From Sphingomonas abietis (GTDB lineage: Bacteria; Pseudomonadota; Alphaproteobacteria; Sphingomonadales; Sphingomonadaceae), in NCBI RefSeq assembly GCF_027625475.1, contig NZ_CP115174.1:2391001-2455000 (forward strand): DNA of 64,000 nucleotides, in the 5' to 3' direction. Each line of letters starts with the position of its first letter. The first letter of the stretch is position 1. The position numbers and the translations under genes are program-made. Positions 1,507 to 36,758 of the stretch are shown in pieces. Under the pieces are notes generated by a model. It was not told where the DNA came from. It worked only from the letters and a program-made list of their open reading frames with translations, and searched no databases.

Positions 1507-2907
1507 TCAATAAGCGTTGCGATGGACGACCACACGCAGCGTGGCGATGAGGATCGAGATATCGCGCAGCACCGTCCAGCCGGTGACATATTCCAGATCG
1601 GACTGAAGGCGATTGATGAGATCGGACTGGAGCAAGGTGGCGCCGCGGAACCCACGGATCTGCGCCAGTCCGGTCAGTCCCGGCTTGCAGGCATGGCGAT
1701 GCCAATAGCGCTCGTCGATTTCCCAGAACAGGCGATCGCCGGCGAGCGATCCCAGGGCGTGCGGGCGCGGGCCGACGAAGCTCATCTCGCCCCGCAGGAT
1801 GTTCAGAAGCTGGGGCAGTTCATCGATGCTGGTGGCACGGATGATCCGCCCGACACGCGTGATCCGCTCGTCGTCCCGGCCGGTCGAGCGGTGCCCGCGT
1901 GCATCGAGGCTTTCCGATCGCATACTGCGGAATTTGTAGATGCCGAACAGACGGTTTCCTCGTCCGACGCGGGTCTGGACAAACAATATCGCACCTGCAC
2001 TATCCAGCTTGATCGCGATCGCGACCAGCAGCAGCAGCGGCGACAGCAGGAGCAAGGCAGAGCCGGCAAGCGCCAGATCGAGCGCGCGCTTGAGCCCGCG
2101 CTGGCGCAGATCGAGCGGCCCAGCCGCGACCACGACCGTGGTATGATCCCCGAAACGCCCGGTTCCAAGCGGACCGATTTCGCCCAGCTCCGGGCTGACG
2201 ATCTCGGCGTCGATATTCGCCCCCTTCAACACCATCGCCCATTTGCGACGCAATTCGGCGGGACAGGCGATCACCACCCGGTCGGCGGGCGCCAGCAGGC
2301 GCCCGATGCGATCGAGCATCAGAGGATCGGACAGGTCGCATCGCAGCCCCATCGACGCGGCATCGATGACGAATGCCCCCGGCGGCGAGGACAATTCGCA
2401 TCCATCCACCACCAGGATTTCGCTATTAACCTGCGATCCGAAGCGATGGAGCACGGCGGTATGAAAGAGCACCCGCTCCACGCCGATGAAAAGACTTCCC
2501 AACATGCCGCCGATCAGCAGCATCATTCGCGAAACCTGCTCGCCGGCCTTGAGGAAGAACGCCGCCAGGACGACGCCCGCACATGCGATCAGCACCGATC
2601 GCACCGCCAGTTCGACGCCCTTCTTCCGCCTCGCCAACCCGTCCGAGCCGAACGCGCCGCTGTTCAGGCTGGCCAGCACATAGAAAAGGACGAAGGCATA
2701 TATAATCGGCGCCGTGGTAGAGAATTCACGGTTTCCCGGCCAGGCGACACTGGCAATGACCGCCGCCGCGATCAGGCAGCCGATATCGAGCCCGAACAGC
2801 AGGATCTGCAATTGAAGCCGATGAATCAAGCGACGAGGGGGGAGCGCCAACTCCTGGAACGAAGGGTGCTTAATATCCTGTCGTGCCATATCCGAGTTGA
2901 CCGTCAC
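1507..2907 (-). CDS. Polyprenyl-phosphate sugar-1-phosphate transferase (EPS-initiating enzyme)
   Basis: The product is 466 aa with the classic WbaP/GelB-like plan. It has four N-terminal membrane helices (about 33-55, 65-85, 100-120, 127-147), a soluble linker with a Rossmann-like half (about 160-255), then a C-terminal bacterial sugar transferase domain. In that domain KRALDL (273-278) precedes the re-entrant helix, followed by QTRVG (311-315), KFRSM (325-329), DELPQL (362-367), FVGPRP (377-382) and KPGLTGLAQ (408-416). The enzyme moves a hexose-1-phosphate from a nucleotide sugar to undecaprenyl phosphate on the inner membrane, the first step of repeat-unit assembly. The sugar is not predictable, though the length and layout fit glucose-specific sphingomonad enzymes. 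The start is GTG 2907; ATG 2889 is an alternative. It is divergent from a second transferase of the same superfamily. Confidence 0.9.
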
Positions 2908-3279
2908 GACGCCCCCCGGCGAATTCCGACTCGATCCGTGGATGACGGATCTGCATTAAATTGCATTTAGCGAATTTTGTGCGGCACAGCAATTGATACG
3001 AACTCATTTCAAGTCGAAACGCATATTCCCTCAAATCGGCCTTTTCTGTCTTTCCAATAGGATGGGTCGCTTGTCCACCGGAATAGGTGGCTCGTCTCCC
3101 GCGATCTGGAGCGCGCCAATCCATCCGGCCATCGGCAAATCATTCCGCAACTAAAAATAGCAGGTAGACAGCGGCCGATATCAGCCAGATTATAGCCGAA
3201 AGTAGATCCTGGCTTTCCGATGGCGGGCCGTTGACACGATGAATGGATAAGCCGGGGGCTTCGTGAAGGGTAACGGTGC
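2908..3279. promoter_or_regulatory. Divergent 372-base intergenic region between two sugar transferase genes
   Basis: The region is AT-richer than its surroundings at 2950-3040 and must hold promoters for both the minus-strand (1507-2907) and plus-strand (3280-4569) genes. A perfect TTGACA is at 3231-3236 on the plus strand, but no good -10 box lies 16-18 bases downstream. A weak hairpin CCACC-N6-GGTGG is at 3075-3090. A GAAGGG ribosome site (3265-3270) precedes the GTG start at 3280. I see no small gene in it. Confidence 0.45.
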
Positions 3280-4569
3280 GTGCTGATGTTGCGCGATCCG
3301 GTCGTAGGGCGTTTGGGGAGCGTCATCGACAAGCTGAGAGTGCAACTCGCGCTCGGCCTGTTGGGTGGCGTATTGCTGCCGACTCTCATGCTGCTGCCCT
3401 ATCTTGGCGACGAGACCCGTGCCGGTCGCGGCGTCACCTACAGCATCGTCGGGGGCACATTGGCGATTATCGCCGCGACACTGATCGTCCGCCGGGTATC
3501 CTCCTTTCCCGGAACCCGTGCATTCACCTATATTCTGCCGTCTTTCGCCAGCTGCTATGGGCTTGTACTGGCCGGGCTCTTTCTGGCGCGCCTCGAATAT
3601 AACCGGCTGTTCCTGTCGGTTTCCTTTGCGCTCTCCTTGCTGATCGCGCTGGGCACCGCATTGCACATCGCGCGCACCGTGCGCCGCTGCTTCTGGCTGG
3701 TGCCGTTCGGCCGCACCGAGCGGATGCGCGAAGCCTCCCATGTCGACTGGGTCGTGCTGACCTCCCCGGTCGTGCCGAGCGATCCCAATGCGGTGATCGT
3801 CGCCGACCTCCAGCATGACCATGACGACGCCTGGGCCCATATGCTGGCGGTGGCGGCCGTCACCGGCCACGCCGTCTATCACACCAAGGTGTTGATGGAG
3901 TCGCTCACCGGACGGGTCTCGATGGACCATCTTTCCGAAAACAGCTTCGGCTCGCTCCTGCCGAATCTCGCTTACGTCCATATCAAGCGGACGATCGACT
4001 TGCTCGGCGTCGTGTTCCTCCTGCCCTTTCTTGTGATCCCCTTGCTGGTGATCGCGATGCTGGTGAAACTCAGCTCGCCGGGGCCTGTCTTCTTCGTCCA
4101 GGAGCGCATGGGGCATCGGGGCGTGCCGTTCCGAATGGTCAAGTTCCGGACCATGTATGTCCGCGCCAAATCCGGGTCCGAAGCCGCACGCGGCGATGCG
4201 ATGACGGCAAACCGCGATCTGCGCGTCACCGCCATCGGCCATATTCTGCGCCGCAGCCGGCTGGACGAGCTGCCCCAGATCTGGAACATCGTCAAAGGCG
4301 AGATGAGCTGGATCGGCCCTCGCCCGGAAGCCATCCCTTTGTCACAGTGGTATCAAGGCGATATTCCTTTCTACCATTATCGCCACATCATCCGGCCCGG
4401 CATTTCGGGCTGGGCGCAGGTCAATCAGGGGCATGTCACCGATCTCGAAGCGGTTCGGGACAAGCTCAAATATGATTTCTATTACATCAAGAACTTCTCG
4501 GCGTGGCTCGATCTGCTGATCTCACTGAAGACGCTCAGGGTCATCTCAAACGGGTTCGGTGCCCGTTGA
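3280..4569 (+). CDS. Second polyprenyl-phosphate sugar transferase
   Basis: The product is 429 aa. The N-terminus has about four membrane helices (24-42, 56-70, 84-103, 110-131), a soluble linker, then the sugar transferase domain. IKRTID (235-240) leads into a hydrophobic re-entrant helix, followed by KFRTM (288-292), DELPQ (329-333), GPRPE (346-350) and RPGISGWAQV. It has the same catalytic core as the enzyme at 1507-2907, but the two sequences diverge well beyond recent duplication: KFRTM versus KFRSM, and GPRPE versus GPRPH. The spacing of GAAGGG (3265-3270) favours GTG 3280 over ATG 3286. It likely initiates a repeat unit on undecaprenyl phosphate. Having two such enzymes implies two donor sugars or two polymers, which fits the two export systems in this window. 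Confidence 0.9.
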   Translation: MLMLRDPVVGRLGSVIDKLRVQLALGLLGGVLLPTLMLLPYLGDETRAGRGVTYSIVGGTLAIIAATLIVRRVSSFPGTRAFTYILPSFASCYGLVLAGLFLARLEYNRLFLSVSFALSLLIALGTALHIARTVRRCFWLVPFGRTERMREASHVDWVVLTSPVVPSDPNAVIVADLQHDHDDAWAHMLAVAAVTGHAVYHTKVLMESLTGRVSMDHLSENSFGSLLPNLAYVHIKRTIDLLGVVFLLPFLVIPLLVIAMLVKLSSPGPVFFVQERMGHRGVPFRMVKFRTMYVRAKSGSEAARGDAMTANRDLRVTAIGHILRRSRLDELPQIWNIVKGEMSWIGPRPEAIPLSQWYQGDIPFYHYRHIIRPGISGWAQVNQGHVTDLEAVRDKLKYDFYYIKNFSAWLDLLISLKTLRVISNGFGAR

Positions 4570-11805: not shown

Positions 11806-13167
11806 ATGATGCGCCTGCGCGCGCTGACCCGATCCGATCTGGGCCGGCGCCTTGCCCTTGCCACCGTGTCCAGCGGCATCATCTGGGCCGCCGGGACGGC
11901 CGCGACCTTCGCGGTGGGGGTGCTGCTGGCGCGCCGGCTGGGGCCGGCCGGCTATGGCGTCTATGGCACGGCGATCGCCATCGTCACGCTGCTCGCGGTG
12001 CCCGCCCAGTTCGGTCTGCCCCTGCTCTCGACACGGGAAGTGTCGGCGGCGCGCGTGCGCGGCCGGGCGGACGAGGTGGCGGCACTCGGCTGGTGGTTCG
12101 CCGCGATCGTCGCCGGCGCCTCCCTCTTCCTCGCGGGCGGGCTCCGGCTCGCGAACGATGTTCTGCCCCTCGCCCCGCCGATCCGGCCGGCGATCGCCGC
12201 GGCAGCTTTGCTGTTGCCGGCATTGGCCTTGTCCGGGCTGACCAGCGGACTGCTGCGGGGACGCGAGCGTGTGATCACCAGCCAGTTGCTCGATGTGCTG
12301 ATACGACCGCTCGTCTTCGTCGCCGCATTGCTCGCATGGTCGCAGCCGCTGGGGCCATCGCAGGCGATCGGCGCACAGGTGGTGGCCGCAGGAACCATCG
12401 CGCTGATCGGCTTCGTGCTGTTCTTCCGCGGGCTGCCGCTCACCATGTCCGGTGGTGCCGTCCGTCTCCGCACCTGGTCTGCCGCGGCCTTTCCGATGAC
12501 ATTGATGGAGGCGATGCGCGCGCTCGAAGGCAGCTATGCCGTGCTGGTGGCGAGCTATGTCGCGAGTATCGCCGATGCCGGGCTGCTGCGGGTGGCGATC
12601 GCCAGTTCGGTGATCCTGCAATTGCCGATCTCGTTGCAGAACATCGTCACGGCCCCCTTCCTCGCCGGCGCCCACGCGGCGGGCGAGACCCGGCGCCTGG
12701 CCCAGATCGTGGCGGCATCGACATTGTTCATGACCGGCGGGGTGGCGGCGGTGCTGATCGTCCTCGCCGTCGCGGGACGATGGGCGCTCCCCTTCGCCTT
12801 CGGGCAGGGCTTTGCCGGCGCCTATGTGCCGCTGATGATCCTGGGCGGCAACCAGTTGCTCTCGGCCATGATCGGCCCGAACATCATGCTGCTGAGCATG
12901 ACCGGGCATGAGCGTATCGTCGCCCAGGCATTCATCGCATCGGTGCTGGCGGGCGTGGCGACGGCGGCGGTCCTCACGCCGATATTCGGCGTCACCGGCA
13001 CCGCCGCCTCGACCTGGGTGGTCACCGCGATCCGGGGCGTGCTGCTCAATCGCCACGCGCGACAAACGCTGGGTCTCTCGCCGTCGCTTCTTGCCGCGAT
13101 CGGGCAGTTCAGCCGTCACGGTGGTTCGGCGCGTCCGGATGCGGCATCCGGGCGGGGTGGCCTGTGA
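11806..13167 (+). CDS. Oligosaccharide flippase, Wzx/MATE-like
   Basis: The product is 453 aa with about 12-14 hydrophobic helices. The N-terminus (GIIWAAGTAATFAVGVLLARRLGPAG, followed by YGVYGTAIAIVTL) is typical of Wzx proteins, with the conserved 'R-x-L-G-P-x-x-Y-G' after helix 1. Wzx proteins of the MOP superfamily move undecaprenyl-diphosphate-linked repeat units from the cytoplasmic to the periplasmic face. It sits between the TPR-like protein and the first GT4 gene. The same operon also encodes an ABC exporter (21941-23875) which could in principle do the same job. Confidence 0.9.
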   Translation: MMRLRALTRSDLGRRLALATVSSGIIWAAGTAATFAVGVLLARRLGPAGYGVYGTAIAIVTLLAVPAQFGLPLLSTREVSAARVRGRADEVAALGWWFAAIVAGASLFLAGGLRLANDVLPLAPPIRPAIAAAALLLPALALSGLTSGLLRGRERVITSQLLDVLIRPLVFVAALLAWSQPLGPSQAIGAQVVAAGTIALIGFVLFFRGLPLTMSGGAVRLRTWSAAAFPMTLMEAMRALEGSYAVLVASYVASIADAGLLRVAIASSVILQLPISLQNIVTAPFLAGAHAAGETRRLAQIVAASTLFMTGGVAAVLIVLAVAGRWALPFAFGQGFAGAYVPLMILGGNQLLSAMIGPNIMLLSMTGHERIVAQAFIASVLAGVATAAVLTPIFGVTGTAASTWVVTAIRGVLLNRHARQTLGLSPSLLAAIGQFSRHGGSARPDAASGRGGL

Positions 13168-13186: not shown

Positions 13187-14260
13187 ATGGCCCGCATCGC
13201 CCTGCTGTTGCCGGACCTGCAAGTGGGTGGCGCCGAGCGCGTCACGCTGACTCTGGCCGCGGGCCTGCTCGCGCTCGGCGACGGGGTCGATCTGGTGGTG
13301 CTCCGCCGGGAAGGGCCGCTGCTCGATGAAATCCCCGCCGGCCTCCGGCTGATTTCGCTCGATGCGCCACGATTGCGGCAGGCGGCGCGCCCGCTCGCCG
13401 ATTATTATGCCCGCGAACGGCCCGATGCGCTGCTCGCGCCGATGTGGCCGCTCAGCAGCATCGCGGTATGGGCCGCCCGCCGCAGCGATACGCGCGTGGT
13501 CGTGATCGAGCACAATATGCTGTCGGTCGAAGCCCGGACATGGCGGCTGGCCGCCCGCCTCCTGCTCCGGCCGGTCCTGCGCTGGACCCATCGCCGCGCG
13601 GCCGCCCGGATATCGGTGTCGCAGGGTGCGGCGGACGATCTGGCGAGGCTGAGCGGCTTGCCGGGAGATGCCGTAGAGGCAGTCTATAACCCCATCCCCC
13701 TGCCCATCCCCCCTGTCGAGGACGAACGGCTCGACTGGGGCGGAACCGGGCGGCGGATCCTGACCGTCGGCCGTCTCAAGGCCCAGAAGAACCATCGTCT
13801 GCTGGTCGAGGCGTTCGCCCGGATGAGCCGTCCGGAAGACCGGCTCGCGATCGTGGGAGAAGGCGAGGAGCGCGCCGAGATCGAAAGGATCGCCGCCGAG
13901 CTGGGTGTGGCGGACAGGCTGTTGCTGCCGGGCTTCATGGCCGATCCCGGTCGCTGGTATGCCTCGGCCGATCTGTTCGTGCTGTCGTCCGACTATGAAG
14001 GCTTCGCCAATGTCGTGGCCGAGGCGCTGGGCTACGGGCTGACCGTGGTGTCGACCGACTGCCCGAGTGGCCCTGCCGAAATCCTCGCCGGTCTCGGCCG
14101 GTTGGTGCCGGTCGGCGATGCCGCTGCGCTGGCGGCTGCGATGACCTCCGCACTGGATGCGCCGGACGCACCCGATGCCGCCCGAACGCGCGCGGAAGCC
14201 TTTGCGCCGCAATCGATCACCCGGCGCTATCGCGCGCTGTTGCTGGGTGATGCCGGATGA
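13187..14260 (+). CDS. GT4-family glycosyltransferase
   Basis: The product is 357 aa. The N-terminal GT-B domain begins ARIALLLPDLQVGGAERV, the usual Gly-Gly-Ala-Glu acceptor-side loop. The C-terminal donor domain has ILTVGRLKAQKNHRLLVEAF and the E-x7-E signature in SSDYEGFANVVAEALG. It is a retaining, cytoplasmic enzyme that extends the lipid-linked repeat unit; sugar specificity is not predictable. I chose the ATG at 13187 because homology begins there; the frame is open earlier, but inside the flippase gene. It overlaps the next GT by four bases (ATGA). Confidence 0.9.
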   Translation: MARIALLLPDLQVGGAERVTLTLAAGLLALGDGVDLVVLRREGPLLDEIPAGLRLISLDAPRLRQAARPLADYYARERPDALLAPMWPLSSIAVWAARRSDTRVVVIEHNMLSVEARTWRLAARLLLRPVLRWTHRRAAARISVSQGAADDLARLSGLPGDAVEAVYNPIPLPIPPVEDERLDWGGTGRRILTVGRLKAQKNHRLLVEAFARMSRPEDRLAIVGEGEERAEIERIAAELGVADRLLLPGFMADPGRWYASADLFVLSSDYEGFANVVAEALGYGLTVVSTDCPSGPAEILAGLGRLVPVGDAAALAAAMTSALDAPDAPDAARTRAEAFAPQSITRRYRALLLGDAG

Positions 14261-15438
14261 CGATCCTCTACATCAGCCAGGACGGCATCGCCGATCATAT
14301 CGGCCAGAGCCAGATCGCGCCCTATATTCTCGGGCTCGCCGCCCGCGGTCATGACATCCATCTGATCAGCGCCGAGAAGGACGGCATGGAACCCATCCTC
14401 GCCCGCTATCGCGCGCGTTTCGATGCGGCTGGCGTGCGCTGGACGGTGGTGCGCTACCATAAGCCGCTGCTCGGCACGCTGCGCGATCTTGTGGCGATGA
14501 CACGCGCCGCGCGGCGCATCGCGCGGGTCGAACATATCAGCCTGATCCATTGCCGCAGCCATCCGACCATGCCCGTCGGCATGGCGGTGAAGCGCTGGAC
14601 CGGCGCCAGGCTGCTCTTCGACTTTCGCGACTTCTGGGCGGACACCGGCATCGCCAAGGGCCGCTTCGTGCCGATCTACCGCTTCTTCAAGCGGCTGGAA
14701 CGGCGCTTCATCGCGGCTGCCGATCACGTTAATTGCCTCACCGAGCGCGCGGCGGCGTATCTGCGCCGTGTCTATCCCGAACAGCAGGCCAGCTGGTCGG
14801 TGATCCCGTGCTGCGCCGATTTCGATCTGTTCCGGCTGGCCACCGATGCCGGTGCGACCCGCGCCGAACTGGCCATCGCCGGGGATGCGACGGTATTGCT
14901 CTATCTCGGCAGCATCGGCCCGGACTATCTGCTCGATCGGATGATGGCGCTGTTCGCGGCTTTGCGCGGCCTCCGCCCCGATGCGATATTCCTGTTCGTC
15001 GTCAACAATGCGGCCGAGACCGTCCATGCCGCCGCCGCCGCCGCCGGGCTGCCGCGCGAGGCGATCCGCGTCACTGGTGCCCCGCGCGAGCGCGTGCCGG
15101 CCTTGATCGGGGCGGCCAATCTCTCGGTGGTGTTCATCCGTGCCGATCTCTCGAAGATCGGCTGCTCGCCGACCAAGCTCGGCGAGACATTGGCCTGCGG
15201 CGTGCCGGTCGTGGCCAATGCCGGTGTCGGCGATCTCGACGCGCTGCTCGATCCCGCTGTCAATGGATCGCTCACCGTGACCGATTTCGCGCCGGCGACC
15301 TTGCGGGATGGGCTTGAACGGGTTTTGCATTCGTCCCTTTCCGGCGCAGAAATCCGCCAATCCGCTCTGGCGTTCAGCCTCGAATCCGGCATAAATGCCT
15401 ATGCTTCGGTGTATGAGGCGCTCAGGGGGGGATCATGA
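14257..15438 (+). CDS. GT4-family glycosyltransferase, divergent
   Basis: The product is 393 aa. It starts with an ISQDGIADHIGQSQIAPYI segment that resembles the acceptor loop of GT4 enzymes in EPS clusters. A Rossmann half (GSIGPDYLLDRMMALF) and GCSPTKLGETLACGVPVV follow, the latter standing where the E-x7-E donor motif normally lies, with Lys and Glu retained. It is translationally coupled to the preceding GT (ATGA). The most divergent part is the linker around residues 190-220. Likely a cytoplasmic repeat-unit GT; donor unknown. Confidence 0.85.
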   Translation: MTILYISQDGIADHIGQSQIAPYILGLAARGHDIHLISAEKDGMEPILARYRARFDAAGVRWTVVRYHKPLLGTLRDLVAMTRAARRIARVEHISLIHCRSHPTMPVGMAVKRWTGARLLFDFRDFWADTGIAKGRFVPIYRFFKRLERRFIAAADHVNCLTERAAAYLRRVYPEQQASWSVIPCCADFDLFRLATDAGATRAELAIAGDATVLLYLGSIGPDYLLDRMMALFAALRGLRPDAIFLFVVNNAAETVHAAAAAAGLPREAIRVTGAPRERVPALIGAANLSVVFIRADLSKIGCSPTKLGETLACGVPVVANAGVGDLDALLDPAVNGSLTVTDFAPATLRDGLERVLHSSLSGAEIRQSALAFSLESGINAYASVYEALRGGS

Positions 15439-15472: not shown

Positions 15473-16702
15473 ATGCTGAACGTCGTCGTTTTGAACGGCG
15501 GCCGTGGCGCCGCGACGCTGCTGCCGTCGCTGCTCGATCTGCCGGGCGTCCGGCTGACCTCGATCGTCAACGCCTATGACGACGGCAAGTCGACCGGCGA
15601 GATCCGGCGTTTCTTCGGGATGCTGGGGCCGTCCGACCTCCGCAAGGTGCAGGCGCTGATGCTGCCGCAGGATGGCACCCAAGCCGCCGCCCGCGCGCTG
15701 TTCGATCATCGCTTCGCCGACGACATCGGCCATGCCGAGGCCTGGGCCACGCTCGCCCGGTTTCGTGACGGCGGCGATCTGCCGGCTGCGATCGGCGTGC
15801 TGCCGCTTCGGATCGCCAACGTGCTGCGTGGCTGGATCGATCGCTTCCTCGACGCGCTGCCGCTCGCGGAGACGGTGATCGGCCGCCGCTTTGCCTTCGG
15901 CGACTGCGCGATCATGAACATCCTCTACGCCGGCGCCTTCCTCGCCTGCGCGCGCGACATGGAGGAGACGGTGTCCGCCGTCGACCGGCTGTTCCGGCTG
16001 CGCGGCGTGGTGCTGCCCAACAGCTGCGACGATCGCTGGCTGGCCGCCGAGCGGGAGGACGGCACGATCCTGTCGACCGAGGCCGAGATCGTCGAATTGC
16101 GCTCGAACGACCGGCTCGCGCGGCTTTTCCTGCTGGAACGGCCGGTCGATGCGGAGGCGCTGGCGCGGCTCGATAGCGCCGACCGGGCGCGTTTTCTCGC
16201 TCAGCGCCACACGCCCGTCCGGCTGTCGGCCGGCGCGCGGCTGGCGATCGAGCAGGCCGATGCGATCATCTATTCGGCCGGCACCCAGCACAGCTCGCTA
16301 TACCCGACCTATATGTCGCGCGGCATCGCCGCCGACATCGCGGCGAACAGCGGCGCCTTGAAGGTGTTCGTCACCAACATCGGCGCCGATTACGAGACGC
16401 CGCGCTATCGCACCTCCGATTTCGTGCAGGGCGCATTGCGCTTCCTCCGCCTCGGCGTGGAGCGCTTCATCGCCACCGAGGATCTGATCCACGTCGCGCT
16501 GATCAATTCCAGCCGGATCAAGCCCGACGAAACCTATGTCGACGACGATGCCGAGAATTTTGCCGATCTGCCGGTGATGCGGATCGTCGCCGATCTCGAA
16601 TCCCGCGCGGCGCCGGGCAAGCATGATGGCGCGGCGATCGTGCGGTTGATCATGGAACAGCTCGATCGCCGCGAAGAGGCAAGGCGCCATGCACGGGCCT
16701 GA
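15473..16702 (+). CDS. CofD/YvcK-like protein in an EPS operon
   Basis: The product is 409 aa. The N-terminus reads NVVVLNGGRGAATLLPSLL, then SIVNAYDDGKSTGEIRRFFG and GPSDLRKVQALM. These correspond to the Gly-rich loop, 'DDGGSSGRLR' and 'PGDIRN' of the YvcK/CofD superfamily. Further on, IIYSAGTQHSSLYPTYMSRG and VFVTNIGADYETP match the YvcK 'GPGSLYTSIIPNLL' and 'V-x-N-L' regions. CofD transfers phospholactate from a nucleotide-activated donor in F420 synthesis; B. subtilis YvcK binds UDP-sugars. Neither role fits an EPS operon directly, and this copy lacks the exact Gly-Gly-Ser-Ser. It heads a five-gene module with a HAD phosphatase, a GT2, a nucleotidyltransferase and AsnB. The ATG at 15473 is chosen from homology. 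Family call good, function unknown. Confidence 0.8.
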   Translation: MLNVVVLNGGRGAATLLPSLLDLPGVRLTSIVNAYDDGKSTGEIRRFFGMLGPSDLRKVQALMLPQDGTQAAARALFDHRFADDIGHAEAWATLARFRDGGDLPAAIGVLPLRIANVLRGWIDRFLDALPLAETVIGRRFAFGDCAIMNILYAGAFLACARDMEETVSAVDRLFRLRGVVLPNSCDDRWLAAEREDGTILSTEAEIVELRSNDRLARLFLLERPVDAEALARLDSADRARFLAQRHTPVRLSAGARLAIEQADAIIYSAGTQHSSLYPTYMSRGIAADIAANSGALKVFVTNIGADYETPRYRTSDFVQGALRFLRLGVERFIATEDLIHVALINSSRIKPDETYVDDDAENFADLPVMRIVADLESRAAPGKHDGAAIVRLIMEQLDRREEARRHARA

Positions 16703-17321
16703 GCGGTTGCTGGCGGGGCGCCGGCTGTTCATCTTCGATCTCGACGGCACGCTGGCCGACAGCTCGCCGATCCATGCCGCCGCCTTCGCCACCGTGCTGG
16801 CGCCGCGCGGCATCGCCGTCGACTATCCCGCGATCGCCGGCATGGCGACCGCACCGGCGATGCGGCACCTGCTCGCCTTGGCCGGGCAGCAGCCCGACGA
16901 CGCCGAACTCGCCGCGCTCGTCGCCGCGAAGCGGGCCGCCGCGCGACAGGCCCTCGTCGGGCTGCGCGAGATAGCAGGGGCCGGCGCCTTCGTCGCTTGT
17001 GCCGCCCGCCATCATCGGCTGGCGCTTTGCACCTCGGCGGCGCGCGTGACCGCCGACGCGACGCTCGCGGTGCTGGGGCTGGCGGATCGCTTCGAGACGA
17101 TCGTTACCGCCGACGATGTCGCGAAGCCGAAGCCCGATGCCGAGGCGTTCCTGGCCGTCCTCGATCGTGCCGGGGTGGCCGCCGCCGATGCGCTGATATT
17201 CGAGGATAGCGAGGCCGGGCTTGCCGCCGCGCATGCCGCCGGGATCGATGCGATCCGGATCGGCGAAGGGGCCGCCGACTGGCCCCGCCTTACCCTGCTG
17301 CTGGATGGAGCGGCTGCGTGA
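16689..17321 (+). CDS. HAD-superfamily phosphatase/mutase (beta-phosphoglucomutase-like)
   Basis: The product is 210 aa. HAD motif I is FDLDGTLADS (Asp17 nucleophile, Asp19 acid/base), a small helical cap follows, motif II is LCTSAA, motif III Lys lies in DVAKPKPD, and motif IV is IFEDSEAG. Length and cap type fit the beta-phosphoglucomutase/phosphoglycolate phosphatase group. It overlaps the CofD/YvcK-like gene by 14 bases and the following GT2 by four. In this setting it could make a sugar-1-phosphate or remove a phosphate for the nucleotidyltransferase two genes on. The substrate is inferred only. Confidence 0.85.
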   Translation: MHGPERLLAGRRLFIFDLDGTLADSSPIHAAAFATVLAPRGIAVDYPAIAGMATAPAMRHLLALAGQQPDDAELAALVAAKRAAARQALVGLREIAGAGAFVACAARHHRLALCTSAARVTADATLAVLGLADRFETIVTADDVAKPKPDAEAFLAVLDRAGVAAADALIFEDSEAGLAAAHAAGIDAIRIGEGAADWPRLTLLLDGAAA

Positions 17322-18220
17322 AGATCCTCGCGGCGGTGGTCACGCATAACCGTTGCGTGCTGCTGGAACGCTGCGTCGATGCGATCCGCGCCCAGACCAG
17401 GCCGGCGGACGGCGTGGTCGTCATCAACAATGCCAGCACCGACGGCACCGTGGCGATGCTCGATGCCAAGGGCGTGGCCCATGTCGATCAGGCCAATCTC
17501 GGCTCGGCCGGCGGCTGGAACCGCGCCATCGCGGAGTGTCTCGCGGGGGGCTATGACGCCGTCTGGCTGATGGACGATGACGGCTATCCCGACGCCGATG
17601 CGCTGGCGGCCCTGGCCGGCAGCCTGACCGACGGCATCGCCTGCGTCTCGTCGGTGGTGCTGCGCGAGACCGAGCCGACCCATTTCGTCTTTCCCTTCCC
17701 GCTGCTCGATCGGGCCGGCCTGCCGGTGGTGATGGCCCGGCCACGCAAGCTGGCGACGCTCGCCGAACTGGACGGCATCGCGCAGGCCGGCAGCTATCCT
17801 TTCGCGCATCTGTTCAACGGCGCCCTCATCGCGCGGGCCGCGATCGACGCGGCCGGCACGGTCGATACCGGATTCTTCATGTTCGGCGACGAGGTCGATT
17901 ATTTCTTCCGACTGCGCCAAGTGGGCGAAGTCCGTTCGGTGCTGGCCGCGCGTCATTATCATCCCGACGTCGCGCGCCGGCCGCTGACACCCGCCAAGCT
18001 CTATTATTATCTCAAGAATACGCTGATTTTGAACCGCCGTTACTTTGACAAGGTGGCGGTGCGTGATGCATTGACGCTCGGAGTGGGATTGGCGCGCTAC
18101 GGCGCGCGCAATGGGTGGTATTCTCTCGTCATCATGCTGGTCTGGCGTCGGCGGCAATTGGTGCCGCGCGCCATATCTCGGGGTCTACGTGGAAAGGTAG
18201 GGCCCGACTTCAATGAGTGA
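17318..18220 (+). CDS. GT2-family glycosyltransferase (rhamnosyl/galactofuranosyl type)
   Basis: The product is 300 aa from a GTG that overlaps the HAD stop (GTGA). The GT-A fold begins AAVVTHNRCVLLERCVDAI, with INNASTDGT, the donor-metal motif WLMDDDGYPD, and the post-catalytic TGFFMFGDEVDYFFRLRQ, where 'E-D/E-V-D' supplies the catalytic base. NLGSAGGWNRAI is typical of rhamnosyl- and galactofuranosyltransferases such as GlfT1. The C-terminus is amphipathic and basic, suiting peripheral membrane attachment. It lies inside the CofD/YvcK-like module, so it may transfer the residue whose donor that module makes. Confidence 0.88.
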   Translation: MKILAAVVTHNRCVLLERCVDAIRAQTRPADGVVVINNASTDGTVAMLDAKGVAHVDQANLGSAGGWNRAIAECLAGGYDAVWLMDDDGYPDADALAALAGSLTDGIACVSSVVLRETEPTHFVFPFPLLDRAGLPVVMARPRKLATLAELDGIAQAGSYPFAHLFNGALIARAAIDAAGTVDTGFFMFGDEVDYFFRLRQVGEVRSVLAARHYHPDVARRPLTPAKLYYYLKNTLILNRRYFDKVAVRDALTLGVGLARYGARNGWYSLVIMLVWRRRQLVPRAISRGLRGKVGPDFNE

Positions 18221-18935
18221 ACCCCGTGTGCTGATCGCCGCCGCCGGCGCGGGCGCGCGCGCCGGCCTGCCCTATCCCAAGACGCTGCATCCCGTGCAGG
18301 GCCGAGCGATCCTGGGCCGCCTGCTCGATGTGACGGCACGCCTCGATCCCAGCCCGACGATCATCGTCTCGCCGTCGGGACGTGCGCCGATCACCCAGTT
18401 TCTCGATAGCGAAGGCGCGCGCGCGCATCTGGTCGAACAGGCCTTGCCGACCGGTATGGGAGATGCGGTGCTGGCGTTCGAACGCTCGCCCGCCGCGGCC
18501 GGCGCGGATACCGTGGTGCTGGCGTGGGGGGACATCCCCTTCCTGTCCTCCGAGACCGTAGCGGCGACGCTCGCGCATCATCAGCGAACCGGCGCGGTGC
18601 TGACCTTCCCCTCGATCCGCGTCGACCGCGCCTACACGATCGTCTCGCGCGCTGCCGATGGCAGCGTCGCGGCGCTGGACGAGACCCGCCTGTCGGGCGC
18701 CGAACCCGGACCCGGCGAACGCGATATCGGCCTGTTCCTGTTTCGCGCCGCCCCGGTGCTGACCGCGCTGCGACAGTCGGCCGCCGAGCATGATCCGGCG
18801 CGGGGCGAGCATGGGTTCCTGCAGCTGATCCGGCGCCTGGTGGCCGCCGGGCATCGTGTCGAGGCCCCGCCGATCGCGACGGATCGCGAAACCATCTCCT
18901 TGAATGCCCTCAGCGATCTCGGGGCCGACGCCTGA
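18213..18935 (+). CDS. GlmU-like sugar nucleotidyltransferase
   Basis: The product is 240 aa. The nucleotide-binding loop is LIAAAGAGARAGLPYPKTLH with HPVQGRAIL straight after, very like the N-terminal half of GlmU (L-A-A-G-x-G-T-R-M...P-K-x-L-H). ALPTGMGDAVL and the metal Asp in WGDIPFLSSE follow. It lacks the left-handed beta-helix acetyltransferase half of GlmU. The basal reaction should be NTP plus sugar-1-phosphate giving NDP-sugar. The Gly-Thr-Arg-Met of GlmU is replaced by Gly-Ala-Arg-Ala-Gly, so the base or sugar preference may differ. It overlaps the GT2 by eight bases and AsnB by one. Confidence 0.85.
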   Translation: MSEPRVLIAAAGAGARAGLPYPKTLHPVQGRAILGRLLDVTARLDPSPTIIVSPSGRAPITQFLDSEGARAHLVEQALPTGMGDAVLAFERSPAAAGADTVVLAWGDIPFLSSETVAATLAHHQRTGAVLTFPSIRVDRAYTIVSRAADGSVAALDETRLSGAEPGPGERDIGLFLFRAAPVLTALRQSAAEHDPARGEHGFLQLIRRLVAAGHRVEAPPIATDRETISLNALSDLGADA

Positions 18936-20890
18936 TGTGCGGCATTGCAGGAATGCTGACCATCGGGGCCGTCACCGAAACCGTGATGCGGGCCATGGCC
19001 GATGCGGTGGCGCATCGCGGCCCGGATGACGAGGGCGTGTGGATCGATGCCGGCGCAGGCATCGGCCTGGCCCACCGGCGGCTGTCGATCGTCGATCTCT
19101 CCGCGGCCGGGCACCAGCCCTTCCATTCGCGCTGTGGCCGCTTCGTGCTCAGCTACAATGGCGAGATCTACAACCATGCCGAACTGCGACGGACGATCGA
19201 GGAGAAGGGGCCGGTTCCGTGGCGTGGCCATTCGGATACCGAGACCCTGCTGGAAGCGATCGCGCTCTGGGGGCTGAGCGAGGCGCTCCAGCGTGCGAGC
19301 GGCATGTTCGCGCTGGCGCTATGGGATCGCGAGACCCGTGAACTCAGCCTCGCGCGCGATCGGGTGGGCGAGAAACCGCTTTATTATGGCTGGAGCGGCG
19401 ATCGCCTGCTGTTCGGATCGAGCCTCGCCTCGTTCCGCGCGGTGCCGGGCTTCGCCGGCGAGGCCGATCCCGATGTCACCGCGCTCTATCTGCGGTTCAA
19501 CTGCGTGCCGGCCCCCTATTCGATCTATCGCCGCGTCTACAAGGTGATGCCCGGTACGATCGTGACGATCGACCAGCGCGCCATCGGCCGGGCGCCGTCG
19601 CAGCCGCCGGCGGTGCCGTCCCGCCAGGTCGGGCTGTCCACCATGCGCTACTGGTCGCTCGCCACGGTGGCGAAGAACGGCGCGGGCCGAGCCGAGCATG
19701 ATCCGGATCGTGCCCTCGCCACGCTCGAACAGCGGCTCACCACCGCCGTGGCGCAGCAGACCATGGGGGATGTGCCGATCGGCGCGTTCCTGTCCGGCGG
19801 GGTCGACAGTTCGCTCATCGTCGCCCTGATGCAGCGCGCGATCGGGGAACGGGTCCGCACCTTCACGCTCGGCTTCGACGATCCGTTGATGGACGAGGCC
19901 CCGCACGCCGCCGCCATCGCCCGCCACCTCGGCACCGAGCATCACGAACATTATATCACGCCGGCCGACGCGGCGGATGCCGTCGCCGCGATGCCGTCGA
20001 TCTACGACGAACCCTTCGCCGACTCCTCCCAGATCGCGACCTATATCCTGAGCCGGGAGACGCGGCGCACGGTGACGGTGGCGTTGTCGGGCGACGGCGG
20101 CGACGAATTGTTCGGCGGCTATAACCGCTACATGATGACAAGCCGGATCTTCGATCGGCTTTCGATGCTGCCGGCCAGCGGGCGGCGGGGGCTCGGCCGG
20201 ATGCTGGCCGGCATCTCGACCGACATGTGGGATCGGATGGGCGCGCTGCCCTTCGCCCCGAACGTGCCGATGCTCGGCAACAAGGCCCACAAGGTCGCCC
20301 GCGCAATGCGCTCCGGCGGTGGCTTGGACGAGATCTACGCGGCCTTCACCGAGGAATGGCATTCGGGCGTGCCCATTGCCCATGACAGGCGCATCGCCGC
20401 ACCGGCCCTCGACGGCGCCTTCGAGGCCAAGACCCGCGAAGAGCAGATGATGTACTGGGACATGATGTCCTATTTGCCGGACGATATTCTGGCCAAGGTC
20501 GATCGCGCCTCCATGGCGGTAGGGCTCGAGGTGCGGGCACCGATGCTGGATCGCGATGTCGTCGCGGCCGCTTGGGAGACACCATTGTCGCTCAAAATTC
20601 GCGATGGCCAGAGCAAATGGTTGCTGCGCCAGCTTCTCTTCCGCTACGTGCCTCCTGTACTGATCGAAAGGCCGAAGACAGGGTTCGGCGTGCCGTTGGG
20701 TCGTTGGTTGCGTGGTCCGCTTCGGGATTGGGCCGAAAGCCTGCTCTCGACTGCCGCGCTGGATCGCGTCGCGGGTCTCGACGCGATCGCCGTGCAGCGT
20801 CGCTGGCAACAGCATCTGCGCGGGACACACGACTGGACGGCGGCCTTATGGTCCGTGCTCATGCTGATGGGGTGGCAAAGCGAGTGCTGA
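18935..20890 (+). CDS. asnB: AsnB-type glutamine-dependent amidotransferase
   Basis: The product is 651 aa. It has the class II glutaminase N-terminus MCGIAGML with catalytic Cys2, HRGPDDEG and the LSYNGEIYNH loop. The synthetase half has the PP-loop SGGVDSS (about 289-295), LSGDGGDELFGGYNRY and LDRDVVAAAW. Many EPS and O-antigen loci carry an AsnB homologue that amidates a hexuronic acid carboxylate (WbpS-like) rather than aspartate. A uronic-acid dehydrogenase and epimerase at 34476-36758 are consistent with that, and the position inside a GT operon favours it over asparagine biosynthesis. The gene starts on the last base of the nucleotidyltransferase stop. Confidence 0.9.
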   Translation: MCGIAGMLTIGAVTETVMRAMADAVAHRGPDDEGVWIDAGAGIGLAHRRLSIVDLSAAGHQPFHSRCGRFVLSYNGEIYNHAELRRTIEEKGPVPWRGHSDTETLLEAIALWGLSEALQRASGMFALALWDRETRELSLARDRVGEKPLYYGWSGDRLLFGSSLASFRAVPGFAGEADPDVTALYLRFNCVPAPYSIYRRVYKVMPGTIVTIDQRAIGRAPSQPPAVPSRQVGLSTMRYWSLATVAKNGAGRAEHDPDRALATLEQRLTTAVAQQTMGDVPIGAFLSGGVDSSLIVALMQRAIGERVRTFTLGFDDPLMDEAPHAAAIARHLGTEHHEHYITPADAADAVAAMPSIYDEPFADSSQIATYILSRETRRTVTVALSGDGGDELFGGYNRYMMTSRIFDRLSMLPASGRRGLGRMLAGISTDMWDRMGALPFAPNVPMLGNKAHKVARAMRSGGGLDEIYAAFTEEWHSGVPIAHDRRIAAPALDGAFEAKTREEQMMYWDMMSYLPDDILAKVDRASMAVGLEVRAPMLDRDVVAAAWETPLSLKIRDGQSKWLLRQLLFRYVPPVLIERPKTGFGVPLGRWLRGPLRDWAESLLSTAALDRVAGLDAIAVQRRWQQHLRGTHDWTAALWSVLMLMGWQSEC

Positions 20891-21984
20891 TCTACTGGGC
20901 CTTCATGGGGTTCGCCTGCTTCATGGCGATGATCGAGCAGGGCGTCGAGCGGGTGAGCCACCGCGTCAACTTCATCTGGGTCATGTTCACGATCGCGCTT
21001 GCGCTGTTCATCGGCGGCCGATGGAAAACCGGCGGCGACTGGGGCAATTACTATGTGAACCTCGAGCCTTTCTATCAGATGCGGCTCGGAGAAGCGGCAG
21101 CGTCATCGAAGGATGTCGGCTTCACCCTGCTCGAGATCATCGCGGCCGAGTTCACCACCGGCATCGTCGTCATCACCATGTTCAGCGGCATCGTCATGGC
21201 GGTCGCGCTGCTGATCTTCTGTCTCCGGCAACCGCGGCCTTGGCTGTGCATGGCGGTGGCCTTTCCCTATCTCGTCGTCGTCTGCGGCATGGGCTATATC
21301 CGGCAGGGCATCGCCATCTCGTTCATCATGGTCGGCCTGACCGCCCTGGATCGCGACCGGATCGAACGCTATATCGGCTGGGTGATGGCCGGCGCGATGT
21401 TCCACGCGACCGCACTGGCGATGATCCCGCTCGGCGCCGTCGTCAGCAAGAAGAACCGGCTGCTGGTGATTGCGATGGTGGGCGCGATCACGCTTCTGGC
21501 TTATCATTACCTGATCGCCTCGCGCGCCGACAATCTGGTCACCAATTATGTCGATGTCGAAGCGGAATCGTCCGGCGCGCTCGTCCGTTCGCTGATGGGC
21601 GCCCTGCCCGGTGCGATATTCCTGGTGTTCCGCAAGAATTTCGGCCTGTCCGGCAGCGCGCTGCTCGCCTGGATGGCGCTGAGCGCCGCCGCGATCGCGA
21701 CCGTGCCGGCGGTGCTGCTCTACCCGTCCTCCACCGTGGTCGACCGGCTCGGCCTGTACCTGCTGCCGGTGCAGTGCTTCGTCTATGCCCGCGCGCCCGA
21801 TGCACTCGCCAGGAACGCGCAGCAGCGCCTGTTCTTCGCGATCGGCACGTTGTTGCTCTACATCGTCGTCTTCTTCACCTTCATCAATTACAGCGACCAT
21901 GCCAAATCATGGGTGCCCTACCGCTTTTACCTGTTCGAGGATGGCATTTGCCTCGAATGCGGTGGCCCAGACCGGTCCTATTGA
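20884..21984 (+). CDS. EpsG-family membrane protein, candidate polymerase
   Basis: The product is about 366 aa from the GTG at 20884, which overlaps the AsnB stop by seven bases; an in-frame ATG at 20848 is an alternative. It has about ten helices. The EpsG-like hallmark is TGGDWGNYYVNLEPFYQ after helix 2 ('G-x-D-W-x-x-Y'), then GMGYIRQGIAISFIM, matching the conserved 'R-Q-x-[IL]-A' helix. EpsG-type proteins polymerise EPS repeat units. Together with the Wzy/ligase-like protein at 6754, locus A holds two polymerase-type proteins; one of them may ligate or cap. Confidence 0.85.
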   Translation: MLIYWAFMGFACFMAMIEQGVERVSHRVNFIWVMFTIALALFIGGRWKTGGDWGNYYVNLEPFYQMRLGEAAASSKDVGFTLLEIIAAEFTTGIVVITMFSGIVMAVALLIFCLRQPRPWLCMAVAFPYLVVVCGMGYIRQGIAISFIMVGLTALDRDRIERYIGWVMAGAMFHATALAMIPLGAVVSKKNRLLVIAMVGAITLLAYHYLIASRADNLVTNYVDVEAESSGALVRSLMGALPGAIFLVFRKNFGLSGSALLAWMALSAAAIATVPAVLLYPSSTVVDRLGLYLLPVQCFVYARAPDALARNAQQRLFFAIGTLLLYIVVFFTFINYSDHAKSWVPYRFYLFEDGICLECGGPDRSY

Positions 21985-35489: not shown

Positions 35490-36758
35490 ATGGATCAACC
35501 GCATATCGTCGTCGTCGGGCTCGGTTATGTCGGCCTGCCGCTCGCCGTCGCGCTCGCCCGCCACTTCCCGACCGTCGGCATCGACATCGATGCGACGCGC
35601 ATCGCCGAACTGGAGCGGCATCACGACCGCACCAACGAGATCGATGCCGGCCGTCTCGCGGCGACCAGCCTGACGCTGACCAGCGACCCCGGAGCGGTTC
35701 CGCCGGCGGACATCTACATCGTCACCGTCCCCACCCCGGTCGACGCCGCCAATCGGCCGGACCTGTCGATCGTCGAGAGCGCATCGCGCATGGTCGGCCG
35801 GATGATGGCGGCCGAGCGCCGGCCGATCATCTGTTTCGAGAGCACCGTCTATCCCGGCGTCACCGAAGATGTCTGCGGGCCCATCCTCGAACAGGTGTCG
35901 GGGCTGAGGCGCGGCGCGGACTTCTTCCTCGGTTACTCGCCCGAGCGCATCAATCCCGGCGACCGCGAGCATACGATCGACCGCATCACCAAGGTCGTCG
36001 CCGGCGAGAATGCGGAGGTGACCGATCGCCTCGCCGCGATCTACGGCGCGGTGACGACCGGCGGCACGCACAAGGCGGAGTCGATCAAGGTGGCCGAGGC
36101 GGCCAAGGTGATCGAAAATGCGCAGCGCGACATCAACATCGCCTTCATGAACGAGATTACCCGCATCTTCTCGCTGATGGACATTTCGGTGTGGGAGGTG
36201 TTGCGCGCGGCCGGCACCAAATGGAATTTCCTGCCGTTCCAGCCCGGCCTGGTCGGCGGCCACTGCATCGGGGTGGACCCTTATTATCTCGCCCATGCGG
36301 CCGCCACCCTCGGCCACGATCCCGCGGTCATCCTGTCCGGCCGCGCGATCAACGACGGCATGGGCGCGTGGGTCGCAGACCAGCTCTCCGAACGATTGGC
36401 GCCAGCATCCGACGTGCTGGTGATGGGCCTCACCTTCAAGGAGGATGTGCCGGACCTCCGCAACAGCAAGGTGGTGGACGTCATCGCCCGGCTGAAGGCG
36501 CTTGGGCATCGCGTCGATGTCAGCGATCCGCGTGCCAATCCGGCCGAAGCGCAGCATGAATATGGCCTGGCGCTCGTCGCCAATCCCGGCATGGGCGCCT
36601 ATGACAGCGTGCTGGTCGCCGTGCCCCACGCGCAATATCGCGCCGACGGTGCTGCGGGCATGGCACGCCATCTCAAGCCCGGCGGGGTGCTTGCGGATCT
36701 CAAGGGTCTGTTCGCTGGCCAGACGATGCCGGACGGCGTGACCTATTGGGGCCTCTGA
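35490..36758 (+). CDS. Nucleotide-sugar 6-dehydrogenase, HexNAc type (WbpO/TviB-like)
   Basis: The product is 422 aa. The NAD-binding loop is VVGLGYVGLPLAVALARHF. The middle domain has YSPERINPGD. The active-site Cys region is FQPGLVGGHCIGVDPYYL, the version typical of UDP-N-acetylhexosamine dehydrogenases rather than UDP-glucose dehydrogenase ('C-x-P-K-D'). LTFKEDVPDLRNSKV is the UDP-binding C-domain motif. It oxidises C6 of a UDP-HexNAc in two steps, giving a uronic acid. With the epimerase it can supply an acidic sugar such as GalNAcA, which AsnB (18935) may then amidate. Confidence 0.9.
   Translation: MDQPHIVVVGLGYVGLPLAVALARHFPTVGIDIDATRIAELERHHDRTNEIDAGRLAATSLTLTSDPGAVPPADIYIVTVPTPVDAANRPDLSIVESASRMVGRMMAAERRPIICFESTVYPGVTEDVCGPILEQVSGLRRGADFFLGYSPERINPGDREHTIDRITKVVAGENAEVTDRLAAIYGAVTTGGTHKAESIKVAEAAKVIENAQRDINIAFMNEITRIFSLMDISVWEVLRAAGTKWNFLPFQPGLVGGHCIGVDPYYLAHAAATLGHDPAVILSGRAINDGMGAWVADQLSERLAPASDVLVMGLTFKEDVPDLRNSKVVDVIARLKALGHRVDVSDPRANPAEAQHEYGLALVANPGMGAYDSVLVAVPHAQYRADGAAGMARHLKPGGVLADLKGLFAGQTMPDGVTYWGL

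Follow-up and report, generated by a model that had tools for sequence, protein, structure and literature searches.

A CofD-family protein in a conserved cassette with HAD, glycosyltransferase and GlmU-like nucleotidyltransferase partners in exopolysaccharide-type loci and phages

Heptose is activated by a sugar-phosphate kinase, the HAD phosphatase GmhB and a nucleotidyltransferase (HddC/HldC). In a 64,000-nucleotide stretch of Sphingomonas abietis DNA (positions 2,391,001 to 2,455,000 of contig NZ_CP115174.1; hereafter the window), we analyzed a cassette encoding a CofD-like protein, a HAD enzyme, a family 2 glycosyltransferase (GT2) and a GlmU-like nucleotidyltransferase (NTP). The cassette resembles heptose activation in that the HAD would stand between a phosphorylating step and the nucleotidyltransferase and the product would go to a glycosyltransferase; it differs in having the CofD-like protein in the place of the kinase, no kinase of a known type, and no isomerase or epimerase in its core. 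With the F420 pair (CofC/FbiD and CofD/FbiA) the cassette shares PF01933, Asn33, two metal-binding Asp positions (the pair reported for FbiA in the available text is D45 and D57; PMC7253369) and a partner nucleotidyltransferase, whereas it has an NTP of the GlmU-like kind and is linked to a HAD and a glycosyltransferase, its genome yielded no F420 ligase, and its CofD-like protein falls on a separate branch of the tree. With YvcK/GlmR (and E. coli YbhK) it shares PF01933, the DDG motif and a possible link to uridine nucleotides, but it reads DDGKSTG for DDGGSSG, scores under the NCBIfam cut-off and has the cassette partners. Two phage systems provide a further comparison: for RB69, UDP-arabinose genes have been proposed, one of them for an NTP-containing protein and another for a sugar-isomerase-like protein, and TH1_063 of Shewanella phage Thanatos is a UDP-xylose pyrophosphorylase that makes UDP-xylose in vitro (PMC6024577, PMC12838424). 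These also have a phage-encoded NTP-type protein, proposed or in part assayed, for an unusual sugar on DNA, in their case on cytosine, but CofD is mentioned nowhere in the main text of either report. A search of the open-access literature, which does not establish absence from print, returned no paper joining CofD or ‘2-phospho-L-lactate transferase’ with exopolysaccharide, polysaccharide, glycosyltransferase or Sphingomonas, and none of the open-access papers listed on CofD, YvcK, FbiA and structure concerned exopolysaccharide synthesis or phage DNA, as judged by title.

Our analysis showed CofD, HAD and NTP to form a set whose glycosyltransferase partner is exchangeable; the first three were taken as one unit because of the fusions and the co-occurrence described below. 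The glycosyltransferase varied with the context, being a GlfT1-like GT2, a polyprenyl-type GT2, a relative of the T4 beta-glucosyltransferase BGT (PF09198) or an alpha-glucosyltransferase of phrog_842. From sequence comparisons, we lean slightly toward the view that CofD, HAD and NTP would be successive enzymes making a nucleotide-activated residue for the neighboring glycosyltransferase. The core of the cassette is four genes, encoding the CofD-family protein, the HAD, the GT2 and the GlmU-like NTP, which are followed in the window by a gene for an AsnB-type amidotransferase:

15473..16702, + strand: CofD-like protein, 409 amino acids (PF01933, 2.2e-31), with the signature NAYDDG(K/L)STG ... 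LGxSDxRK
16689..17321, + strand: HAD phosphatase or mutase of the beta-phosphoglucomutase/YqaB type (HAD_2, PF13419, 1.6e-24; PDB 4g9b, 3kbb)
17318..18220, + strand: GT2 with a distant likeness to the galactofuranosyltransferase GlfT1 (Glycos_transf_2, PF00535, 5.6e-16; NF050113 at 110 bits, cut-off 330)
18213..18935, + strand: GlmU-like NTP, 240 amino acids, without the acetyltransferase domain (NTP_transf_3, PF12804, 1.6e-14)
18935..20890, + strand: AsnB-type amidotransferase (Asn_synthase, 3.1e-107; TIGR01536 at 436 bits, cut-off 267)

An earlier, sequence-only reading of this DNA had described five overlapping or nearly touching genes; the five open reading frames were confirmed, each overlapping the next (by 14, 4, 8 and 1 bases, successively), and Pfam upheld the domain identities it had given. 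The CofD-like frame opens at 15395, and the ATG at 15473 matches the family start MLNVVV.

A profile of 19 sequences was run on 84,980 species genomes and led to 33 loci; since exact peptide patterns were used in the locus search, this number and that of the 15 viral loci described below are lower bounds. The taxa with cassette loci included Sphingomonas, Novosphingobium, Brevundimonas, Accumulibacter, Competibacter and Geomonas, as well as SAR86, Prochlorococcus, Pelagibacteraceae and Bacteroidetes. The gene order, which the sequence-only reading had proposed to follow into other genomes, was kept: with the window genes as tblastn queries, CofD-HAD-GT2-NTP stood on one strand in 24 of the 33 loci, down to 45% CofD identity, and CofD-GT2-NTP in 28, down to 38%. 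The five loci without the shorter order were L008, where the GT2 lies upstream, L012 and L027, where the pieces end, L028 and L033. This gene order is far beyond chance. A glycosyltransferase was present at all 33 loci (32 by tblastn and L033 by Pfam). AsnB was matched in 24 loci, standing directly 3’ of the NTP in only nine and elsewhere on either strand, and had no match in nine; because of these two counts, we rejected AsnB as a core member, and it is a frequent, optional companion of the cassette.

For counts with family profiles, the exopolysaccharide-type set comprised 33 loci, namely the tblastn 33 minus L033, which was assigned to the fusion set, plus L035; L001 and L036 (the window itself) were left out of the counts. 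NTP was matched at 30 of these loci, GT2 at 32 and HAD at 29 (one a decayed fragment), counts that, like the profile counts for the fusion and phage loci below, are partly by construction since these very loci supplied the members of the profiles; the exopolysaccharide-type matches had first been found by tblastn from the window. The three pieces without NTP (L012, L027 and L035) end before its place. At L012, from a single-cell alphaproteobacterium, a decayed HAD gene stands alone between CofD and GT2 (2600–3480).

Fusions of CofD to a glycosyltransferase formed a second context. At L033, CofD forms one protein with a GT2 that resembles polyprenyl-phosphate glycosyltransferases, and L091 likewise encodes a CofD-GT2 fusion, both by Pfam. 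PF01933 was found in 37 of 249 phylum genomes, ten times in frames of about 600–720 amino acids, and five regions with such frames share mostly the same neighbors: a methyltransferase, HAD, NTP, a second GT2 and a radical SAM protein. NTP was present at all six fusion loci (L033 and L090–L094; the CofD frame of L094 was not located in the gene calls) and HAD at five. The cluster at these loci is perhaps a lipid-linked glycan pathway. A flippase-like LPG_synthase_TM protein is encoded near the fusion at L033.

The third context was viral. When viral contigs were searched with the bacterial CofD profile, three loci were obtained, and the three phage proteins used as queries raised the number to fifteen; a search of annotated records added one unannotated 462 kb phage. 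L054, which ends inside CofD, was dropped from the counts, and L055 matches L049 in gene places and scores, so that the 15 usable phage loci amount to about 14 distinct ones. CofD carries a C-terminal HAD in 14 of the 15, called by profiles and by motifs such as DFDDT and GDE..GND, while at L050 CofD is separate and the HAD is fused to the NTP; the HAD is thus fused to one or the other at all 15 loci. NTP was found at 14. In P0256, among the 120 relatives listed of 540, both CofD and HAD exceeded the Pfam cut-offs, and P0355 is a single GT2-CofD-HAD chain, its HAD part recognized by motif. A relative of the T4-type DNA glucosyltransferases was encoded at 13 of the 15 loci: BGT relatives at nine (by PF09198 at L037 and L038, by BLAST at the others) and phrog_842 alpha-glucosyltransferase relatives at four. 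Genes of the thymidylate-synthase family, which also includes hydroxymethylases, lie near the cassette at L037, L040, L050 and L051. Homologs did not lie mostly outside glycan loci, the finding that would have told against the sequence-only reading; the other contexts were these phage loci, where DNA glucosyltransferase relatives are encoded, and the fusion loci, with polyprenyl-type GT2s.

The phage HAD seems to be a different HAD in the same place, with recruitment from two subfamilies, because the phage and bacterial HADs align over 22 columns only. Its profile was closest to structures of HAD-type phosphomannomutase and alpha-phosphoglucomutase (7myv, 1.1e-10; 4bnd, 1.4e-9), and the Pfam HAD families matched at most four of ten phage members, weakly. 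The phage and bacterial NTPs aligned over 233 columns at 99.7% probability.

The cassette was rare, and its CofD and NTP were found in the same genomes. CofD of the cassette family occurred in two of 289 genomes of a class sample and in two of 397 of a family sample, the genome of the window included. The cassette NTP scored 368 and 361 bits in the two CofD-bearing genomes of the 397, and the third-best match in that sample scored 102 bits; at these thresholds CofD and NTP agreed in presence (2/2) and in absence (395/395). The lower NTP matches were taken for GlmU because they mostly fell within frames of at least 450 amino acids. Identity matrices were correlated for CofD-NTP (r=0.89), CofD-HAD (0.82) and CofD-GT4 (0.56), each with a permutation p of 0.001. 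Among 50,697 phage records, one matched CofD-HAD, and the same one matched NTP.

A maximum-likelihood tree of 39 proteins placed the CofDs of the exopolysaccharide-type loci (including the window), the fusions and the phages in one group of 27 rows (support 97/93), with branch supports of 91/90, 100/99 and 100/100, respectively; the program flagged long branches and uneven composition. Outside the group stood rows that we labeled YbhK, GAK and F420 CofD from length, score and motif, without a family search on those rows. Twelve positions were kept in all 27 group rows: N33, Y35, D36, G38, T41, G42, G52, S54, D55, R57, K58 and E203. The window protein, which is the sole PF01933 match in its genome, passed the PF01933 cut-off (109.6 bits, cut-off 30), and its NCBIfam matches were limited to the YvcK and GAK models, with none to an F420 CofD model; it fell under the cut-off of the GAK-system CofD model TIGR04357 (92.1 vs 340 bits). 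Five proteobacterial loci (L085–L089) encode CofD relatives of about 400 amino acids, labeled GAK-like without a family search, in other neighborhoods with no NTP labeled as that of the cassette.

The partner enzymes were characterized in the same way. The window HAD missed the cut-offs of TIGR02009 (103 vs 153 bits) and of the beta-phosphoglucomutase model TIGR01990 (77 vs 189 bits), and the HAD motif residues Asp17, Asp19, Ser116, Lys148, Glu172 and Asp173 were kept in all 26 sequences. The NTP family profile matched GlmU structures at 5.7e-28, without a full-length GlmU match (best GlmU model 91.2 bits, cut-off 611), and Pfam gave PF12804 and a sub-threshold PF01128, nothing else. Lys23, Gln76 and Asp107 occurred in 32 of 32 NTPs and aligned with GlmU, of which the H. 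influenzae enzyme is described as holding UTP through K25, Q76 and D105 (PMC10128056). Arg159 was kept in 29 of 32 and Arg170 in 31, and position 171 was Asp in 29 of 32 as opposed to Asn in GlmU. Because the NTP keeps the three GlmU positions, has Asp for the Asn of GlmU and carries the two Arg residues, its nucleotide is likely UTP and its residue probably not GlcNAc. A second, weaker match to the NTP profile falls within a 475-amino-acid frame elsewhere in the genome, at C1:2852529.

We propose that the product of the cassette would be a nucleotide-activated residue, most likely UDP-linked and most likely a sugar. The CofD-like enzyme would phosphorylate a sugar or sugar phosphate by means of a CofD-type metal site (Asp36, Asp55), the HAD would remove or move a phosphate to leave a 1-phosphate, the NTP would convert the 1-phosphate into the nucleotide donor, and the glycosyltransferase would attach the residue to a lipid-linked exopolysaccharide intermediate in S. 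abietis and to modified DNA bases in the phages. The order is probably CofD, then HAD, then NTP; the HAD was placed between the other two because it is found fused to either one. The uridyltransferase activity of GlmR on UTP and a sugar phosphate makes either order, CofD first or NTP first, chemically plausible. As a more far-reaching and tentative suggestion, which we hold to be doubtful, the CofD fold may have given rise to a new class of sugar phosphotransferase that yields, with a nucleotide donor, a sugar 1-phosphate or a bisphosphate and opens an unrecognized CofD-HAD-NTP route to nucleotide sugars, common to exopolysaccharide synthesis in several phyla and to DNA hypermodification in phages, where it would supply T4-type DNA glycosyltransferases with a sugar other than the UDP-glucose of the host. 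On the proposed pathway, a CofD-family enzyme would act beyond F420 and UDP-GlcNAc metabolism, and relatives named ‘2-phospho-L-lactate transferase’ in databases would receive a different, testable function. The cassette would also predict that organisms like Geomonas, Prochlorococcus and Accumulibacter have an uncharacterized residue in their surface polymers, and that the DNA of uncultured phages carries an uncharacterized modification of the sugar type.

Several points weigh against the proposed pathway. We know of no CofD relative that phosphorylates sugars; those that are characterized, as far as the available text of the reports goes, either pass on a phospho-acid taken from a nucleotide donor (PMC7253369, PMC8764529) or make UDP-GlcNAc (PMC10128056). 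The HAD was not matched in the DNA covered at four exopolysaccharide-type loci, two from SAR86, one from Pelagibacteraceae and one from an uncultured alphaproteobacterium (L026, L028, L030 and L032), with L028 lacking a GT2 match as well, nor at fusion locus L090. Phage locus L041 is without NTP in the part covered, and L046 and L053 are without a recognized DNA glucosyltransferase in the DNA covered. The CofD on plasmid pREC4 of Acaryochloris marina (L107, 8983–10080) has no annotated NTP, HAD or glycosyltransferase nearby, the absence of NTP resting on the PLSDB annotation, which is incomplete. The absence of CofD from genomes of the 397-genome sample rests on a first look with at most a few candidates scored per genome and is not proof, and shared ancestry contributes to all the distance correlations, the CofD-GT4 pair still reaching 0.56.

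The strongest alternative is a decoration reaction like that of F420 synthesis, in which the NTP makes NDP-X from a phospho-acid or phospho-polyol such as that of glycerate or lactate, and phospho-X is then transferred by the CofD-like enzyme to a hydroxyl on the glycan or on a glucosylated DNA base, giving a phosphodiester substituent and a nucleoside monophosphate. We regard it as possible, if rather unlikely. The pairing of a CofD relative with a nucleotidyltransferase follows the CofC/CofD arrangement as presented in the available text of PMC8764529. Asn33 is common to the family and the two rows labeled F420-type CofD and is not found in the YbhK- or GAK-labeled rows; both F420-type rows also have Asp at the positions of Asp36 and Asp55, FbiA itself not being part of the alignment. 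Arg159, Arg170 and Asp171 of the NTP could also suit an acidic substrate. This reaction, however, has no clear role for the HAD, which is fused in all 15 usable phage loci, and the NTP matched GlmU models and structures, with no CofC/FbiD domain model among its Pfam, NCBIfam or structure matches. An activated-sugar pathway accommodates the HAD, the GlmU-like NTP and the exchangeable glycosyltransferase better than the phospho-acid idea does, although CofC/CofD logic still fits CofD and NTP. Synthesis of F420 itself was rejected, as the F420 ligase (PF01996) was not found in the S. abietis genome (0/1; control rings 3/14).

A role like that of YvcK/GlmR, in which the CofD-like protein, as an accessory uridyltransferase or a sensor, would bind or produce a UDP-sugar and so tune the supply of exopolysaccharide precursors, is distinctly unlikely. 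According to the available text of one report, purified GlmR of Listeria and homologs in Staphylococcus and Bacillus make UDP-GlcNAc from UTP and GlcNAc-1-P, and a D40A/D41A/N198A triple mutant of GlmR lost about 100-fold of its activity (PMC10128056). In our alignment to the YvcK-type structure 2hzb, D40 and D41 correspond to Asp36 and Asp37 of the window protein, but position 37 was Asp in four and Asn in four of nine phage rows, and the presumed place of N198 is taken by Thr279 (our placement on the same alignment). The same alignment set GTQHSS..PT of the CofD-like protein against GPGSLYTS..PN of the YvcK type. The sequence-only reading had noted Gly-Lys-Ser-Thr where YvcK has Gly-Gly-Ser-Ser; the solved YvcK-type proteins 2hzb and 2o2z do read DDGGSSG, and the replacement proved to be a family trait, with Gly38, Ser40 and Thr41 invariant and Lys39 nearly so in the alignment of 19 sequences. 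The window protein reached 100.4 of the 196 bits that the YvcK/GlmR model TIGR01826 demands, and the tree set it apart from the YbhK-like and GAK-like rows, YvcK itself not being among the rows. A GlmR-like enzyme would also make the NTP redundant. The sensor of UDP-sugar supply that had been suggested earlier is disfavored, because in phages the same genes occur, fused, next to those for DNA glucosyltransferases. Exopolysaccharide loci recombine readily and AsnB varies in presence and place, but that ordinary exopolysaccharide genes were thrown together without a common pathway is very improbable, given that one set recurs across phyla, in phages and in fused form, with matched presence and absence, although it may hold for AsnB.

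The cassette is flanked in the window by two further genes of interest:

14257..15438, + strand: GT4 glycosyltransferase directly upstream of the CofD-like gene (Pfam GT4 domains)
20890..21984, + strand: EpsG-type polymerase downstream of AsnB (PF14897, 2.4e-41)

A Polysacc_synt (Wzx-type) protein and two GT4s are encoded upstream of the cassette and the EpsG polymerase downstream, and the surroundings are those of an exopolysaccharide-type locus. A match to this GT4 was found in 27 of the 33 loci, and 24 loci have it upstream of CofD at a distance of no more than 500 bases. EpsG-like open reading frames recur at related loci (cluster c9, 14 members, one an EpsG by Pfam), and a methyltransferase is inserted at L009, L023, L024 and L028. 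The earlier interpretation, a five-gene module for a glycan residue with an atypical CofD/YvcK protein, is partly supported as a whole: the module is conserved and accompanied by a glycosyltransferase throughout, but AsnB is not core and the upstream GT4 is commoner. An Rfam scan of positions 1–40000 of the window gave no matches. G+C content is 52–61% at 36001–60000 and 66–69% at 12001–36000, and a separately acquired stretch is possible.

A few minor observations concern relatives in mobile elements. The window CofD had no match among plasmids at 1e-10, and its sole matches among annotated phages were four unannotated Listeria phage records (OR848133.1, OR846781.1, OR848159.1 and OR846774.1), which match it at 24% and are probably YvcK-like. 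The CofD of L107 is of the phage-like type (29–36% to the phage rows) and adjoins a protein annotated as ‘nucleotide-binding’ that looked TIR-like to us. At L046 (7453–9996), a queuine tRNA-ribosyltransferase-like protein (phrog_887) and an SDR-like protein adjoin the cassette, and the genes at L053 (7122–9986) look similar; at both loci a 300-amino-acid protein without a PHROG match is encoded directly before CofD-HAD.

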